64,000 nt of DNA from Riemerella columbina DSM 16469 (GTDB lineage: Bacteria; Bacteroidota; Bacteroidia; Flavobacteriales; Weeksellaceae). This document shows positions 6,802-37,518 of the stretch, piece by piece. The stretch is from assembly GCF_000374405.1 (NCBI RefSeq), contig NZ_KB894218.1, forward strand, positions 63,683-127,682. Direction: 5' to 3'. The translations under genes were made by a program, and so were the position numbers. The notes beneath the pieces were generated by a model. The model did not search any database and had not been told where the DNA came from. It saw nothing but the letters and a program-made list of their open reading frames with translations. The first letter of the stretch is position 1; each line of letters starts with the position of its first letter.

Positions 6802-7473
6802 ATGTCAGGCACGCTATATTTTGTTCCCACCCCAATTGGTAATTTAGAGGATATGACCTTTAGAGCGGTAAGGATTTTAAAGGGAGTAGATTATATCTTA
6901 TGCGAAGATACCAGAACTTCTGGCGTTTTACTAAAGCATTATGAAATCTCTAAACCGTTGAAATCTTATCATTTGCACAATGAGCATCATACTACGGATA
7001 GAATCGTTGAACATCTAAAAGAGGGTCAAAATATCGCCATTATTACAGATGCGGGAACACCAGGGATATCCGACCCGGGCTATCTTTTGGCTAAAGCCTG
7101 TGCGGACAATAATATAGAAATGATTTGCCTACCAGGGGCTACGGCTTTTGTGCCAGCTTTGGTAGTTTCGGGGTTGCCGAACCATGAGTTCTTGTTTGTG
7201 GGATTTCTCCCTGCTAAAAAAGGGCGACAAACCAAGCTCAAACAATTAGCAGAGGAAAAGAGAACCCTTGTTCTATATGAAAGCCCGCATAAAATCAATA
7301 CAACTTTGGAGCAAATCAAAACTTTTTTTGGAGTGGATACCCAAGTAAGTTTGAGTAGAGAAATTTCCAAAAAATTTGAAGAAACCCAGCGTGGCAGCAT
7401 CGACGAGCTTATCGCTTTTTCAAAAAGTAAAACCATTAAAGGGGAAATTGTGTTGATCATTTCTAAACCTTAA
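6802..7473 (+). CDS. rsmI: 16S rRNA (cytidine-1402 2'-O)-methyltransferase
   Basis: This 223-residue protein is a tetrapyrrole-methylase-fold SAM enzyme that 2'-O-methylates C1402 in the decoding centre of 16S rRNA. Diagnostic segments are the N-terminal YFVPTPIGNLEDMT, the EDTR block, the TDAGTPGISDPG loop and GEIVLII at the end. It lacks the longer C-terminal extension of proteobacterial RsmI. The start is fixed by the -7 box just upstream. It is a single-gene transcript that runs toward the 11-bp repeat array. Confidence 0.93.
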   Translation: MSGTLYFVPTPIGNLEDMTFRAVRILKGVDYILCEDTRTSGVLLKHYEISKPLKSYHLHNEHHTTDRIVEHLKEGQNIAIITDAGTPGISDPGYLLAKACADNNIEMICLPGATAFVPALVVSGLPNHEFLFVGFLPAKKGRQTKLKQLAEEKRTLVLYESPHKINTTLEQIKTFFGVDTQVSLSREISKKFEETQRGSIDELIAFSKSKTIKGEIVLIISKP

Positions 7474-7560
7474 TGATATTAAAAGTAAGGCGTGCGGTCT
7501 AAATTAGGATAATATTTTTCTCTTTATACGAAATATCACTATTTGTTGAGTACCACTTAT

Positions 7561-7802
7561 CTTCTTTTAAAGGGGGTATCATCCATTTCGATAGGGGGTA
7601 TTACCCCCTTAGTTAGTACTTGCTATCCCCTTTAGAACGGGTAAGCGACCCCTTCGGAACGGGTGGTTTACCCCTAGTTTAATACCTATTGACCCCTTCG
7701 GAAGGGGTCGGTAGCCCCTAAATAACGGGTCGATACCCCCTTATTTAATACTTAATAACCCGTTCTCTAGGGGGTGGTTACCCTTTAAGAACAGGTTATC
7801 AT
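7561..7802. repeat. phased 11-bp repeat array A (22 units, also read as 11 x 22 bp)
   Basis: The stretch divides without gaps into 22 degenerate 11-bp units. Examples in a row are CCCCTTCGGAA, GGGGTCGGTAG, CCCCTAAATAA and CGGGTCGATAC. Nearly every unit opens with a run of C or G and ends in A/T-rich bases, so a GC tract recurs once per helical turn in otherwise AT-rich DNA. Some neighbouring units form perfect hairpins (CCCCTTCGGAAGGGGT, 7693-7708). It fills the convergent gap between rsmI and a lipoprotein gene, 27 bp past the latter's stop. There is no open frame through it. A second copy lies at 36821-37040. Function is unknown. Confidence 0.85.
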
Positions 7803-7828
7803 AGCTAAATTGTATTATAAGGTTAGTC

Positions 7829-8263
7829 TTATTTAGTTTTTATCACAATAGTTGTGGTGTGTACCGAATGTTCTTTAATTTTAAACCTTGGTTGCTGGTT
7901 ACTAATTAAGGTATAGGAATCTTCATTATTTTTTCTAAATGCGGCAAAATAATAGGTTTGATTATCATCCACATGATATTTTGATAAATCGAAATACGCT
8001 AAACCATTGGCGTCAGAAGTTGCTTTCATTTCAATATCAGGTAGCATTGAATCTTTTTCTGGATTTACCTCTTTTTTAAACATCATTACCACGATGCCTT
8101 TTTGAGGGATCTGGTTTTTATCAATCACATTAATCTTTACCGAAGTTTTTGTTCTTGTTTCAGAGCTGCTACTCGAAAATTCTTCTGTGCTACTTTCGTT
8201 ACGACTACATGATACAGCTATAAAAAGTAGTGCGAATAGAGAGAATAAAAATATTTTTTTCAT
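7829..8263 (-). CDS. small lipoprotein with Ser/Thr-rich linker and beta-sandwich-like domain
   Basis: This 144-residue protein has a lipoprotein signal peptide with the lipid-acceptor Cys at residue 19 (AVSC). A Ser/Glu-rich linker follows (to about residue 40). The remainder is a short domain with the pattern of bacterial Ig-like or transthyretin-like folds (KINVIDKNQIPQKGIVVMMF, then SDANGLAYFDL). Such domains often sit on the outer membrane. I do not recognise a named family. Its 3' end abuts the phased repeat array, and a second lipoprotein gene lies 53 bp upstream in the same direction. Confidence 0.78.
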   Translation of the reverse strand: MKKIFLFSLFALLFIAVSCSRNESSTEEFSSSSSETRTKTSVKINVIDKNQIPQKGIVVMMFKKEVNPEKDSMLPDIEMKATSDANGLAYFDLSKYHVDDNQTYYFAAFRKNNEDSYTLISNQQPRFKIKEHSVHTTTIVIKTK

Positions 8264-8316
8264 AGTAAAATTATTTATTAGGTTGAAGGGTTTTAGTTAC
8301 TTGGTCAAATCTTAGT

Positions 8317-8778
8317 TCAATGCGTTTTTTTGCGTCTACCGTATTCTACAATTAGTTTGTTGTCATTGATTCCGATGATAGTTCCATCAATAATTTTACT
8401 ACCATCTCGGAAGGCTACGGTATCTCCTACTTTTATTTCAATATTAGCATTGGCTGTTGTAGTAATATTCGTGGCTACACTTTGAAGTCCCCACACATCA
8501 TCAATTACTTTTACTTGTTTGCCATCATCTTTTACATAGATTTTCACATTGCGTACAAATTCTCCTTGGTATTTTCTGGTTAAGTTATCTACCGCTTGTT
8601 CCATAGCATCGGAATCTGCTTTGGCAATCGCTTCTACATCTCTGCTAATAAGTGTATATTTTTTACTATCGTCAATATTGCGGTTGCTTACTGCGGTTAG
8701 GTCGCCAATTCTTACCCAAGAGCTACAAGAACTAAGTGTGAGAGTTACAATGGGAACTAATAATAGAGATTTTTTCAT
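8317..8778 (-). CDS. lipoprotein of unknown function (153 aa)
   Basis: The signal peptide ends in a lipobox with Cys18 (LSSC). The mature part has an alpha/beta-looking N-terminal half (residues about 40-90, with a run of Asp and Ala and YQGEFVRNVKIYV). The C-terminal half has a small-barrel pattern (KVGDTVAFRDGSKIIDGTII) ending in basic RRKKTH. I do not recognise the family. It is probably co-transcribed with the downstream lipoprotein gene, and it is divergent from the regulator gene that starts near 8895. Confidence 0.75.
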   Translation of the reverse strand: MKKSLLLVPIVTLTLSSCSSWVRIGDLTAVSNRNIDDSKKYTLISRDVEAIAKADSDAMEQAVDNLTRKYQGEFVRNVKIYVKDDGKQVKVIDDVWGLQSVATNITTTANANIEIKVGDTVAFRDGSKIIDGTIIGINDNKLIVEYGRRKKTH

Positions 8779-8894
8779 CGTAATTTGTTTTTATTGAAAC
8801 CAAAATTAACATAAACTAGATTGAAAGATAAAACTTTTACTAAATTAATTTTACTATAAGTATGGAATTTTATGCTTTTGGTAAAAAATTAGTT

Positions 8895-9266
8895 ATGGAA
8901 ATGGAAAAGATTGTGGATAAAATAGCACAATACCGCAATAAAAAAGGCTACACTTACGAGAATATGGCACACGAGCTAGAACTATCTCCCGCCGCATATA
9001 GAAAAATAGAAACAGGGGAAACCAAATTAACCGTAGAGCGGTTGTTTAGAATTTCAAATATTTTAGAAGCGCCAATTGATGAGCTATTAGACTTGGATAA
9101 AAACCATTTTGTACAAAATAATTATAGTAACGAGAGTGCCTTTTCCCAAAGAATTGAAAATTTTTATCAAGAAAATAAGGAAATTACCGAGCAACTTATC
9201 AAAGCAAAAGATGATTTGATTGCACATCTAGAAAAGGAAATCGCCTTTCTAAAGCAAGGTAAATAA
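8895..9266 (+). CDS. XRE-family transcriptional regulator with C-terminal coiled coil
   Basis: The protein has an N-terminal helix-turn-helix of the XRE/Cro type (residues about 8-60: YRNKKGYTYENMAHELELS through LTVERLFRISNIL). A Lys/Glu-rich helical tail follows, likely a dimerising coiled coil. An earlier in-frame ATG exists at 8862. I prefer 8895 because the added N-terminus is unlike XRE proteins and a promoter-like TGCTTTTG lies at 8873-8880. It is divergent from the lipoprotein gene that ends at 8778, which could be a target; this is a guess. Confidence 0.82.
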   Translation: MEMEKIVDKIAQYRNKKGYTYENMAHELELSPAAYRKIETGETKLTVERLFRISNILEAPIDELLDLDKNHFVQNNYSNESAFSQRIENFYQENKEITEQLIKAKDDLIAHLEKEIAFLKQGK

Positions 9267-33328: not shown

Positions 33329-33763
33329 TTAGTTTTTTCCAAAAACTTCAATATTATAGATAATTAAATTTCCTAAATTTTTTTCATCCTTCTTTGTCCA
33401 TTCAAAACAATCTGGGTCTTCACTTACAATACACCGTTTTCCATGTAAATCCCAATTTTGATTAAATGTAACGCAAATTTGAGTAGGTCGATTATTTATA
33501 TCCTTACCTAAAGTTTTTCCAAACTCTTTTTCCTCAAGATACCTAAGGCAAATTCTATTAACTTCTAAAGAATTTTTATTGGGTATTGGTAAAACAGACT
33601 TTATAGGAACTTTAATACTTGATAAGAGCTGATTTAAGGGTTTCCCTATAAAATCTTTCTTATTGACTTCTATTTTTCTTGTTTCAGAAGGTGTATTTAT
33701 TTTCAATTGTTGTGCACAAGAAAAGTGCATCATTAAACCTAAAGTAAGAACTATATATTTCAT
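33329..33763 (-). CDS. small exported protein, tandem paralogue 3 of 3
   Basis: This 144-residue protein has a signal peptide (about 1-18, ending HFSCAQ). The mature domain is shared with the next two genes: EVNKKDFIGKPLNQLLSSIKVPIKSV near the start, FNQNWD in the middle, and DEKNLGNLIIYNI-x-V-x-GKN at the end. Cys16 could be a lipidation site, but SCA-Q also fits ordinary cleavage. I do not recognise the family. It is the most diverged copy and the last of the array. Confidence 0.78.
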   Translation of the reverse strand: MKYIVLTLGLMMHFSCAQQLKINTPSETRKIEVNKKDFIGKPLNQLLSSIKVPIKSVLPIPNKNSLEVNRICLRYLEEKEFGKTLGKDINNRPTQICVTFNQNWDLHGKRCIVSEDPDCFEWTKKDEKNLGNLIIYNIEVFGKN

Positions 33764-33779
33764 ATTATTTTTTTATTAA

Positions 33780-33801
33780 AAGCCCAGCCGAAACTGGGCT
33801 T
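33780..33801 (-). terminator. hairpin AAGCCCAG-CCGAAA-CTGGGCTT, copy 2
   Basis: The sequence is identical to copy 1 and lies 10 bp past the stop of the middle paralogue. It was duplicated together with the gene. Confidence 0.68.
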
Positions 33802-33810
33802 GCTACTATT

Positions 33811-34248
33811 TTAGTTTTTTCCTAGTACTACTATATCATAAATAATTAAATCTCCTAAGTTTTTCTCATCTTCTGGTAACCATTCTGCACATTGGGGATT
33901 TTCTTTAGGTCTACATAAATTACCTGATGTATTCCAATTTTGATTAAATTTAACAACTAATTGAGTGGGACCTTCTTCAATACTATTTTTAATCCATACT
34001 CTATGATATTCATCATAAGTGATGTATCTAAAAGTTAATGTATTAATTTCACTTCTATTTTTATTAGGTATGGCTTGTATTGATTTTATAGGTACTTTAA
34101 TAGTAGCTAATAAGTAACTCAAAGGTTTTCCTATGAACTTATCTTTATTAATTTCAATTTTTTTAACATCAGATAATCTATCTATTGTGACTATTTGTGC
34201 ATAGGAAAAGTTTATTATTAAACCTAAAATAAGAATTATATATTTCAT
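33811..34248 (-). CDS. small exported protein, tandem paralogue 2 of 3
   Basis: This 145-residue protein belongs to the same family as its neighbours. The signal peptide ends INFSYAQ, so the Cys of the other two copies is Tyr here and lipidation is excluded for this copy. The C-terminal part (CAEWLPEDEKNLGDLIIYDI) is nearly the same as in paralogue 1. Two Cys residues in LCRPKENPQCAEW may form a disulfide. The function is unknown. Confidence 0.78.
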   Translation of the reverse strand: MKYIILILGLIINFSYAQIVTIDRLSDVKKIEINKDKFIGKPLSYLLATIKVPIKSIQAIPNKNRSEINTLTFRYITYDEYHRVWIKNSIEEGPTQLVVKFNQNWNTSGNLCRPKENPQCAEWLPEDEKNLGDLIIYDIVVLGKN

Positions 34249-34264
34249 ATTATTTTTTTATTAA

Positions 34265-34286
34265 AAGCCCAGCCTAAACTGGGCTT
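34265..34286 (-). terminator. hairpin AAGCCCAG-CCTAAA-CTGGGCTT, copy 3
   Basis: The stem matches the other copies; one loop base differs (CCTAAA). It lies 10 bp past the stop of paralogue 1. Confidence 0.68.
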
Positions 34287-34295
34287 AGTAGTGTT

Positions 34296-34730
34296 TTAGT
34301 TTTTTCCTAATACTGCTATATCATAAATGATTAAATCTCCCAGATTTTTCTCATCTTCAGGTAGCCATTCTGCACACTGGGGATTTTCTTTGGGCGAACA
34401 TAAGTTGCCTAACTTATCCCAATTTTGATTAAATTCTATTCTTAATTGAATTGGTCTATCATCTATTTTTTTATCCCATGTTTTACGGTATTCACTATAA
34501 GTAGTATACCTAATGGTTAGACTATTGATTTCATTTTTATTTTTATTAGGGAAGGCTTGTATTGACTTAATAGGCACTTTAATAGTAGATAATAAATACT
34601 TTAAAGGTTTACCTATGAACTCTTTTTTGTTTAATTCTATTTTTTTAGCATCAGATAGTTTATTCATTGTAACTGATTGCGCACAAGAAAAGTGCATCAT
34701 TAAACCTAAAGTAAGAACTATATATTTCAT
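34296..34730 (-). CDS. small exported protein, tandem paralogue 1 of 3
   Basis: This 144-residue protein has a signal peptide identical to that of paralogue 3 in its first 18 residues (MKYIVLTLGLMMHFSCAQ). The mature part is the shared domain with IGKPLKYLLSTIKVPIKSIQ, FNQNWDKLGNLC and CAEWLPEDEKNLGDL. Starts of the three genes are 482-485 bp apart, which points to tandem duplication of gene plus hairpin. The function is unknown; the array follows a JAMM-like lipoprotein gene and a DUF6705-like gene. Confidence 0.78.
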   Translation of the reverse strand: MKYIVLTLGLMMHFSCAQSVTMNKLSDAKKIELNKKEFIGKPLKYLLSTIKVPIKSIQAFPNKNKNEINSLTIRYTTYSEYRKTWDKKIDDRPIQLRIEFNQNWDKLGNLCSPKENPQCAEWLPEDEKNLGDLIIYDIAVLGKN

Positions 34731-34741
34731 ATTATTTTTCT

Positions 34742-34763
34742 AAGCCCAGCCGAAACTGGGCTT
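34742..34763 (-). terminator. hairpin AAGCCCAG-CCGAAA-CTGGGCTT, copy 4
   Basis: The stem and loop match copy 1. It lies 10 bp past the stop of the DUF6705-like gene, upstream of the paralogue array. Confidence 0.68.
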
Positions 34764-34772
34764 AGTAGTATG

Positions 34773-35339
34773 TTATTGTCTAGTAAAAACAATATTCTCT
34801 CCTTCAGGTAAATAGATTTCCCCACTACATTTATTTTCATTTTCTTTTGTAACAAGAATAGCTTGCGGATAATAACTCCACAACAATTGATTATTACCTT
34901 GTTTCTTTAAATATACAAAGCCATTTCCTAAACTACATTGTTTACCGTAATAAACACAAATTAGTCTGCCTGTATCTTCTTCTATTGTAAATCCAGATAT
35001 AAGAGATCTTTTATTTTCTATGGGATTATTTAAAGTGGTTTCTAATAAATTACCATTTTTATCTTTAATTTCATATTGAATTACTATCATATCTTGATAG
35101 TAATTTTTACTTAAAAATTCAATAGGTGCTTTATATCGTTTGAATATTTTTATCATGATTAATTTATTCCCAATAGCTGTTTTCCATTTACCTATATAGG
35201 GATTTAGTTCATTATTTATATCTTTAAAATACGAACCCTGTGGCTTATTAAGGGCAGAAGTATTTAGTGGATAAATATTCTGTGCTGTACAATTTGTATG
35301 TAATAATAGTGCTATTATTAATAAAAATATTTTTTTCAT
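34773..35339 (-). CDS. DUF6705-like exported protein
   Basis: This 188-residue protein has a signal peptide ending LHTNCTAQ. The mature part opens with YPLNTSALNKPQGSYFKDIN, followed by the IGKWKTAIGNKLIMI strand pattern and ending in IVFTRQ. That outline matches the DUF6705 proteins I know from Chryseobacterium and relatives, whose role is not known. It sits between the JAMM-like lipoprotein gene (18 bp away) and the paralogue array, on the same strand. Cys17 could be lipidated. Confidence 0.75.
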   Translation of the reverse strand: MKKIFLLIIALLLHTNCTAQNIYPLNTSALNKPQGSYFKDINNELNPYIGKWKTAIGNKLIMIKIFKRYKAPIEFLSKNYYQDMIVIQYEIKDKNGNLLETTLNNPIENKRSLISGFTIEEDTGRLICVYYGKQCSLGNGFVYLKKQGNNQLLWSYYPQAILVTKENENKCSGEIYLPEGENIVFTRQ

Positions 35340-35357: not shown

Positions 35358-36734
35358 TTAACATGGGGTAACATTTATTGTGCCATTTTGGTTTTGGGAT
35401 ATTGTAGATACATTGTTATTCTTATCTATCCTCTGTAAGGTTACTTTATTTTCTAATCCCATTTTACTTAAAGTATTAAATAAAATTATTTCTAACCTTT
35501 GCTCTTTTGTTAATGATTTATCCACTATTAGCCTCTGATAGTCAGACCATTGTTCACTCTTGAGTTTTTCAAGCATTTCGGTAGAATAACTATCTAAAGC
35601 GGGAAGTTCATCATCTGTACCTGTAAAGCGTATTAAATAGTGGATGTTTCCTGGTGCTACTACTCCCATAAAGGCATCTTCTCTATTGCCTATCCCTCTA
35701 TATCTAGCTATCTCTATAAGAGTGGCTACATCTGTGGCGGAAAATATATCAACACCGCTACCTGTATGGTTATGATATGCTCCTATAATTTCATTTGGCA
35801 TGCCTATTTTTACACTATGGGCACTAGTTTCACCAGCAGGTTTTATAGAGCCTCCATCCTTAGGAAATAGCCATCCCTTTTCACCACCTACACCACTTTT
35901 GATATGCTCTTTTAGATTTTTAACAGCTTTTTGAGCTTCTGGATTACCTGTAATTTGAGTTTTAGCTTTTCCACATGGGTCTGTAGGAGGATTTATAGGA
36001 TTTCTAGGCATGGAGCCTCCATAAAAAGGAGGGATACAGTCGACGTAAGTTCCACATTCTGGAAATCCACCGCCATAATCAGGAGGGAAAAATCCCATAG
36101 GAGGAAATGGCTTAGAAGGCGGAGGTACAATAATGATTACCTCATCTATATCACATTCATCTCCTGGTTGTCCACATATTTTCATAGGGGTTAGGAAAAA
36201 TTGATTTTTTTTGGAAAGGCTTTTGTAATGTTGATTATAAGCTTTCCGAAAAGCATCAATATTATCCATGTATAGCTTAGAATTGGAATCAAGTATATAA
36301 ATTCCAAACCTTGTTTCATTTTCAGTAAGAATCGCTACGGCTAAATCAACAACTTCTTTATTGACGATTTTTGGAAACAATATCCACTTGTTTCCATTTT
36401 CGTGAGTTATAAGTTGAGACCGAATGTTAAAATCAATATACGATGTTTGAGCTAAAGTACCAGTATTCAATTCCGAAAGTGTTGTATTTTTTAATAATTT
36501 ATCAATAGGCTCTCTACCAGATATATTGGTCTGATAGAGGCTATCGTATCTCAGAGTTAAATACCTGAAACCTTCTGCATAATTAACTTCTTGGTTATCG
36601 GTATTTTTAAAAAAGACTTTAAACTTCTTTGCCATTTCGTCTTTTTGCTGGGCTTGGTTTAGCATTTCATCGGCTCTACAACCTAGTAGTACTAATAGAC
36701 AACCTAGGGATAACCATTTTAAAATTTTCTTTAT
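35358..36734 (-). CDS. lipoprotein with C-terminal JAMM/MPN-type metal-site signature; ATA start codon
   Basis: From the codon at 36732-36734 the product is 458 residues. It has a typical lipoprotein signal (KKILKWLSLG, then VLLGC with Cys19). An N-terminal beta-rich domain runs to about residue 175, followed by a Pro/Gly-rich linker (about 185-250) with paired Cys. The C-terminal domain carries HNHT-x7-S-x2-D (HNHTGSGVDIFSATD), the JAMM isopeptidase/protease metal signature, with a Glu upstream in PNEIIGAYHNH. No ATG, GTG or TTG lies between the upstream stop and the signal peptide. The codon at the expected start is ATA. The first ATG (36665) would lack any export signal. It heads the four small exported-protein genes. 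Confidence 0.72.
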   Translation of the reverse strand: MKKILKWLSLGCLLVLLGCRADEMLNQAQQKDEMAKKFKVFFKNTDNQEVNYAEGFRYLTLRYDSLYQTNISGREPIDKLLKNTTLSELNTGTLAQTSYIDFNIRSQLITHENGNKWILFPKIVNKEVVDLAVAILTENETRFGIYILDSNSKLYMDNIDAFRKAYNQHYKSLSKKNQFFLTPMKICGQPGDECDIDEVIIIVPPPSKPFPPMGFFPPDYGGGFPECGTYVDCIPPFYGGSMPRNPINPPTDPCGKAKTQITGNPEAQKAVKNLKEHIKSGVGGEKGWLFPKDGGSIKPAGETSAHSVKIGMPNEIIGAYHNHTGSGVDIFSATDVATLIEIARYRGIGNREDAFMGVVAPGNIHYLIRFTGTDDELPALDSYSTEMLEKLKSEQWSDYQRLIVDKSLTKEQRLEIILFNTLSKMGLENKVTLQRIDKNNNVSTISQNQNGTINVTPC

Positions 36735-36820
36735 AAGCGTTTTAGTTTTATTAAATTGTAATTAAATCATCTCCCTTCGGATAGAGATGGAGTTTTTATT
36801 TTCTATTTAACAAGCAGTAA

Positions 36821-37040
36821 CCCCTTTATTAGTGTCACCTTACCCCTTTGTAAGGGGCTGATGCCCCCTCGTTTAGTGGGTAGTAATCCGTTCCGAAGGG
36901 GTAGTTGCCCCCTAATGAAGCCCTTACTAATCCCTTCGCTACGGGTCGATACCCCCTTTAGAAGGGCTTATTAACCCCTTCGGAAGGGGTTGGTGGGGTG
37001 TTTAGAACAGGGTTGTTACCCCTTAGTTACTGGTTGTCTG
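36821..37040. repeat. phased 11-bp repeat array B (20 units)
   Basis: It has the same build as the array at 7561-7802: units such as CCCCTTTGTAA, GGGGCTGATGC, CCCCTTCGGAA and CAGGGTTGTTA follow one another without gaps for 20 x 11 bp. Its last units run over the stop codon of the gene at 37027-37518. It shares ACGGGTCGATACCCCCTT (18 bp; 36941-36958 and 7725-7742) and CCCCTTCGGAAGGGGT with array A. Weaker units may extend left to about 36788. It lies between two minus-strand genes, upstream of the JAMM-like lipoprotein gene. Confidence 0.85.
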
Positions 37041-37518
37041 GTGCTGGAGGTGTGGTTCTTTTAGCTCTACTACCAGGGTATTGCTGTTTTAGGTCGGCAT
37101 AGATGGTATTAGAGCCAGGGTCGTTGTTATTAGCTGCTACTTTTATAGCACGGTAGAACATTAGGGCGGTACCGTCTAAATCATAACCTAGAAGCAGGTT
37201 GGTGTCCTTCATTTGTTGGAGTTGCTGGTCTAAAAGGCTAATGAGTTCATTAAGTTGCTTGTGAGCGGTATAGTCTTTATCAAACTCAGTTTTATCCACA
37301 TAACTTGGGATTTTAGTAGGGTTGGCGTCCATTTGTATTTTCACACGGTCTATCCAAACTTCCTTTTCGTACTTCACTCTCCCGAAACCTTTTCGTTCGG
37401 TGGGTGTTAAGCTTTTTACTTTTCCATTGAGGATACCTGCAATAGTATTGATTGCAGTTTTCATTTGTTGAACTTCTTCTGTGCTGAAATTGACAGAAAT
37501 CATGTTTTCATTTGCCAT
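37027..37518 (-). CDS. protein of unknown function (163 aa), cytoplasmic
   Basis: There is no signal peptide or membrane segment. The protein looks mostly helical, with Gln/Lys/Asp-rich stretches (NELISLLDQQLQQMKDT). The C-terminal tail is basic and Pro-rich (KRTTPPAPDNQ). I do not recognise the family. It is the most upstream gene of the accessory stretch on the minus strand. Its last codons and stop lie inside the phased repeat array, so the array may have grown into or trimmed its 3' end. Confidence 0.72.
   Translation of the reverse strand: MANENMISVNFSTEEVQQMKTAINTIAGILNGKVKSLTPTERKGFGRVKYEKEVWIDRVKIQMDANPTKIPSYVDKTEFDKDYTAHKQLNELISLLDQQLQQMKDTNLLLGYDLDGTALMFYRAIKVAANNNDPGSNTIYADLKQQYPGSRAKRTTPPAPDNQ

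Follow-up and report, generated by a model that had tools for sequence, protein, structure and literature searches.

Why should a stretch of DNA keep a helical phase more faithfully than its letters? This question is raised by the array A1, which in Riemerella columbina lies between the convergent rsmI and a lipoprotein gene within the 64,000 nucleotides that were analysed as a whole (the window; Table 1). An earlier note had divided this array into 22 gap-free 11-mers, and both the coordinates and the phase hold, the 22 11-mers corresponding to eleven 22-bp units. Of the explanations offered there, the protein-coating array is the one that we prefer. A1 and its relatives would then be the protein-bound, non-coding half of a two-part system, composed of a helical protein of about 160 residues and an array of 21-22-bp palindromes. 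Judged from sequence, we give this reading a probability of about 0.45.

Table 1. Positions of A1, its cognate locus, neighbouring genes and paralogues (window coordinates unless another contig is named).
Feature	Position	Strand	Description
rsmI (16S rRNA methyltransferase)	6802..7473	+	PF00590; left neighbour of A1
Array A1, orphan	7561..7802	.	eleven 22-bp palindromic units without gaps (CCCCTTnnnAAGGGGTnnnnnn); in part, super-units of 66 bp
Putative lipoprotein gene	7829..8263	-	right neighbour of A1; within the insertion between rsmI and fabG
Putative lipoprotein gene	35358..36665	-	far side of A2; accompanies gene 1 and array in congeners
Cognate array A2	36818..37036	.	ten 22-bp units, 44-bp super-period
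Gene 1	37027..37518	-	163 aa, no signal peptide, all-helical model; unclassified family with downstream phased arrays
Gene 2 (L066)	contig C2, 128909-129382		just beyond the window; paralogue with its own array spelling
L070			same genome; further gene 1 paralogue with its own array spelling

At lags of 11, 22, and 66, the GC autocorrelation of A1 reaches 0.31, 0.33, and 0.49, respectively, and each of these values, including those at the 11 and 22 bp where peaks had been expected, exceeds every one of 2000 dinucleotide shuffles. The shuffled maxima are 0.22 and 0.26 at lags 11 and 22, and over all lags from 2 to 79 no shuffle gives more than 0.31. The 11-bp GC phase is thus real. However, 11 bp is not the repeating unit. 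Shifted by 11 bp, the array matches itself at 0.32 of its letters, compared to 0.50 when shifted by 22 bp and 0.62 by 66 bp, and because this identity peaks at 22, 44, and 66 the repeat unit is 22 bp with a super-unit of 66 bp. This unit is an imperfect palindrome, CCCCTTnnnAAGGGGTnnnnnn, partly arranged as 66-bp super-units. The best units consist of CCCCTTCGGAAGGGGT followed by six bases and are palindromic, with a C-run and a G-run half a unit apart. Therefore, it is the dyad inside each unit that generates the 11-bp phase. At least four stop codons are found in each of the six frames, and A1 is therefore non-coding; a protein-coding repeat is ruled out by these stops and by the 22-bp units, which change the frame every time. 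The arrays of 21-bp units frequently leave one frame free of stops, which a period of seven codons permits, but they start after the stop codon of the gene. A plain tandem repeat or chance is ruled out by the shuffle test together with the period survey described below. A known RNA family was rejected because Rfam gave no match to a curated family at E-values up to 1 (window positions 7000-8400), and a tRNA was rejected as none was found.

The earlier note knew of no family of this kind, but A1 is not unique. A second array, A2, is present in the window directly downstream of gene 1, overlapping its last codons (GC autocorrelation of up to 0.66 at lag 44), and a third, A3 (L009), is located near coaE on another contig of the same genome. 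A2 and A3 share the spelling of A1, and relatives within the genus carry more arrays with super-units of 44 or 66 bp. When compared to the codes of the single genes, A1 matches gene 1 with a z-score of 19.6 (1.4 and 2.5 for genes 2 and 3), and A3 also matches gene 1. The orphan L180 matches gene 2 (z 31.3), the Ferruginibacter orphans L025 and L031 match their resident gene (z 50 and 64), and the orphan L188 is 79% identical to the array of the gene of its own genome, G382. Orphans with the spelling of one gene are thus dispersed in the genomes (A1, A3, L180, L188, L025, and L031). The array L016 of genome G004 is ambiguous (z 7.7 and 6.0), and a search for an orphan of gene 3 detected none. 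A remnant of an ancestral gene beside the orphans was considered and not found at E<0.1. From these spellings, A1 is best explained as an orphan that uses the code of gene 1. The site of A1 is empty in five congeners, four of which have rsmI directly followed by fabG while the fifth carries other sequence. Compared to these congeners, the insertion between rsmI and fabG contains, besides A1, two genes for lipoproteins and one for an XRE-type regulator (7829-9266). Near gene 1 and A2, a 485-bp tandem duplication (33710-34775, 2.2 copies, 81% matches) extends over small lipoprotein genes.

Pfam, NCBIfam, and PADLOC contain no match to the family of gene 1, and the PDB contains no relative. PHROGs returned one marginal match (E 0.0016, 28 residues, function unknown), and the weak Pfam matches LTXXQ, DUF3600, and DFF-C were set aside as they are below the curated cut-offs. 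AlphaFold models the gene 1 protein with confidence as a helical fold (mean pLDDT 89, pTM 0.69) including a single long helix of 55 residues (76-130); a fold search with this model found nothing in the PDB or among viral models. Neither profile nor fold searches recognised a DNA-binding domain in the family, and most of its proteins are slightly acidic, with a net charge of -3.5 on average. Within the bacterium's own family, 77 of 198 genomes encode homologues, often several per genome, and homologues were also found in 31 of 395 sampled Bacteroidota and 5 of 289 sampled Verrucomicrobiota genomes. Nearly all of them are absent from the plasmid collection. The single plasmid homologue (L202, 2501-2968) is located on a megaplasmid of Thiodictyon (Gammaproteobacteria), is 32% identical, and has no array; a plasmid partition system was rejected on this ground. 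A phage or defence gene was rejected as well, given the lack of phage and PADLOC matches. Gene 1 has different neighbours in its congeners, and no gene neighbour is conserved among the loci of the family. The gene and the array thus constitute the whole module.

The association of gene and array is not restricted to Riemerella. In the 330 bp downstream of the homologues (88 loci), the autocorrelation peaks at lags 21, 42, 63, 43, and 22, and there are no such peaks upstream. The mean GC autocorrelation downstream is 0.167 at lag 21 (11.8 standard errors), 0.13 at lag 42, and 0.10 at lag 63, compared to at most 0.03 in the upstream control. A letter-based survey of periods from 15 to 30 covered 119 regions with arrays. 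Most of these lie downstream of homologues, a few are orphans, and for six loci the search region was moved by hand onto the array. The best period is 21 in 66 and 22 in 35 of these regions (101 of 119), and never 20 or 23. The upstream control is flat; 90 of the 119 regions are above its 95th percentile, and all but four of these 90 (86) have a period of 21 or 22. The association spans the Bacteroidota and includes the Verrucomicrobiota loci L160, L164, L190, and L191 (21 or 22 bp). The homologues L134, L137, and L151, like the Thiodictyon copy, lack an array. Between genes the spelling is wholly different (e.g. CCAAAAATGACGTTCCGAACC, TTCAATCAAGTAAGTCTATTGG, and TTCGGAAGGTACCCGGGTAGG), whereas the phase and the strand symmetry persist. 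The suggested selection for spacing rather than for letters is supported by this recurrence of the 21/22-bp period in unrelated spellings across two phyla. Of 65 loci, 16 have a terminator ahead of the array (1 of 88 in the control). Scanning named genomes with a degenerate pattern resulted in 13 matches, of which those in Chryseobacterium, Ferruginibacter, and Verrucomicrobiaceae are phased arrays and several others look like chance. The Chryseobacterium arrays, like A2, are close to homologues of gene 1. A literature search found no description of such arrays.

Orthologous arrays also bear out that phase is kept better than sequence. All 16 length shifts inside them are of 1-2 bp or 21-41 bp, the latter about one or two whole units, and the arrays have diverged by 0.096 compared to 0.199 at fourfold sites, figures that refer to pairs picked for alignable arrays, in which the events are not independent because pairs share genomes. 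These data bear on the very improbable case that the arrays have no function and arose by slippage and template switching at the terminator hairpin, with a period imposed by the wrapping of DNA during replication. The more diverged units at the edges of the arrays, the super-units of 42-66 bp, which look like slippage, and the resemblance of some arrays to the terminator stem of their own gene (L111) would agree with such an origin. However, neutral slippage offers no reason why the period should be fixed at 21-22 bp downstream of a single gene family in two phyla or be kept through a complete turnover of the letters, and the arrays are under constraint. In the array of L111 (1975-2160) the units are similar to a single arm of the terminator hairpin of its own gene, which is a possible origin of that array.

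The dispersed orphans could also be the product of a selfish mobile unit, whose protein copies or moves arrays and whose non-autonomous offspring would be orphans such as A1. The model for this is REP/BIME, palindromic repeats that occur near a cognate RAYT gene and as scattered copies, as single palindromes. Palindromes near a cognate gene and dispersed copies of the same spelling are found here as well, and the absence of A1 from its site in five congeners, the changing neighbours of gene 1, and the patchy distribution (31 of 395 genomes) fit such a unit. In contrast to REP/RAYT, the arrays are tandem and of fixed helical phase, and the gene 1 family has no match to a Y1 transposase in Pfam or NCBIfam, nor any other match or fold of a nuclease or transposase. 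An unsystematic search found neither target duplications nor fixed ends, and the rate at which the aligned arrays change is half that of synonymous sites, unlike decaying selfish repeats. Thus, we regard a mobile unit as improbable.

The array could act as DNA or as RNA. For 58 of the 72 arrays, the periodic profile agrees with its reverse complement more closely than chance would allow (p<0.05), as would be expected for the sites of a dimer. It would also be expected of a transcribed chain of hairpins bound by the neighbouring protein, for example an RNA antitoxin or scaffold, and the support for the stacked RNA hairpins suggested by the earlier note is mixed. The arrays are self-complementary and fold less well once their letters are shuffled within columns (the real arrays have a mean z of -1.43 on the gene strand, 49% being below -1.64), A1 itself reaches z-scores of -4.2 and -5.4 on its two strands, and 22 nt are two turns of A-form helix. 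Such folding counts against the protein sites because plain arrays of sites do not need it. However, the two strands fold about equally well, and compensatory changes between orthologues are in no convincing excess (22 compared to 20 expected, and 27 compared to 21), although broken pairs are fewer. In addition, the commonest period is 21 and not the 22 of the A-form, the terminator precedes the array in a quarter of the loci, so that these arrays lie beyond it, and Rfam does not contain a match. An RNA is therefore rather unlikely. The array downstream of the gene at L078 forms an unusually long, near-perfect hairpin, which suggests that some arrays are being converted to long inverted repeats.

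An RNA partner would be reminiscent of type III toxin-antitoxin systems (ToxIN), in which the repeats are upstream of the toxin gene and encode near-identical RNA units of about 36 nt. The likeness consists in a protein of about 165 residues beside a tandem-repeat element, a terminator between them, and matched pairs. Here, in contrast, the arrays are downstream, degenerate, and composed of 21-22 bp, the phase signal is found only downstream and never upstream of the gene, and neither Pfam, NCBIfam, nor PADLOC relates the gene 1 family to ToxN, TenpN, or CptN.

If the arrays are the sites of a protein, the following mechanism could be envisaged. The array is usually located just behind its cognate gene, and orphans that share its spelling are present at other sites of the genome; the protein, probably as a dimer, would bind each palindrome. 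With one site every two helical turns, the dimers would be aligned along one face of the DNA and could cooperatively coat or wrap it, forming a compact nucleoprotein complex. A paralogue would read only its own spelling, so that several systems could coexist in one cell, and arrays of one spelling in cis and in trans might be bridged. Cooperative dimers on one face are proposed because they fit the spacing of two B-form turns, the strand symmetry, the private spelling, and the constraint. The probability given to the protein-bound array is not higher because we infer binding from sequence and the protein has no recognisable DNA-binding domain. The slight acidity of the proteins, the arrayless homologues, and the selection of alignable pairs behind the conservation figures were also counted against it.

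Among known systems, ParR-parC, the plasmid centromere of ParMRC partition systems, also pairs a small protein with short repeats arrayed nearby, which measure 10, 11, 17, or 20 bp depending on the plasmid. The spelling of these repeats varies between families, and a given ParR binds no array but its cognate one (PMC9426499). The small protein, the adjacent repeat array, and the family-specific spelling are common to both, the pairing resting here on matched spelling with putative binding. However, the gene 1 protein is modelled as all-helical without a match to ribbon-helix-helix proteins in Pfam, NCBIfam, or the PDB, and a ParM-like actin ATPase does not recur among the neighbours. The array is palindromic and downstream of the gene, orphan arrays exist, and homologues are nearly absent from the plasmid collection. 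Because the protein family differs and ParM is missing, the system does not belong to ParMRC; it may be functionally similar to ParR-parC while being unrelated to it by any test run. The iterons of plasmid replication, direct repeats of conserved sequence upstream of rep, are similar in being arrays of helically phased sites of about 20-22 bp to which the product of a nearby gene binds, a binding that is putative for the arrays described here. In contrast to iterons, there is no homology to Rep, and several systems are present per genome.

In general, gene and array look like an undescribed system of a protein and its binding array. It is an even question whether they represent an undescribed class of nucleoprotein, in which a family of novel fold, with several members per genome, is paired with private palindrome arrays in strict two-turn phase, the letters changing completely from one system to the next under a lasting phase and symmetry, and with arrays in trans by which one protein could bridge distant sites of the chromosome. 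The gene family occurs in two phyla and is nameless in the curated libraries searched, and its DNA signature keeps the geometry and not the sequence. Homology searches miss such arrays because the letters turn over. If the array were an RNA or a selfish element, it would be equally undescribed. If the protein reads the array, these bacteria would possess a set of protein-DNA codes that are orthogonal to one another and include a rule for spacing, which, if true, could be used to study the evolution of specificity and for synthetic chromosome organisation.
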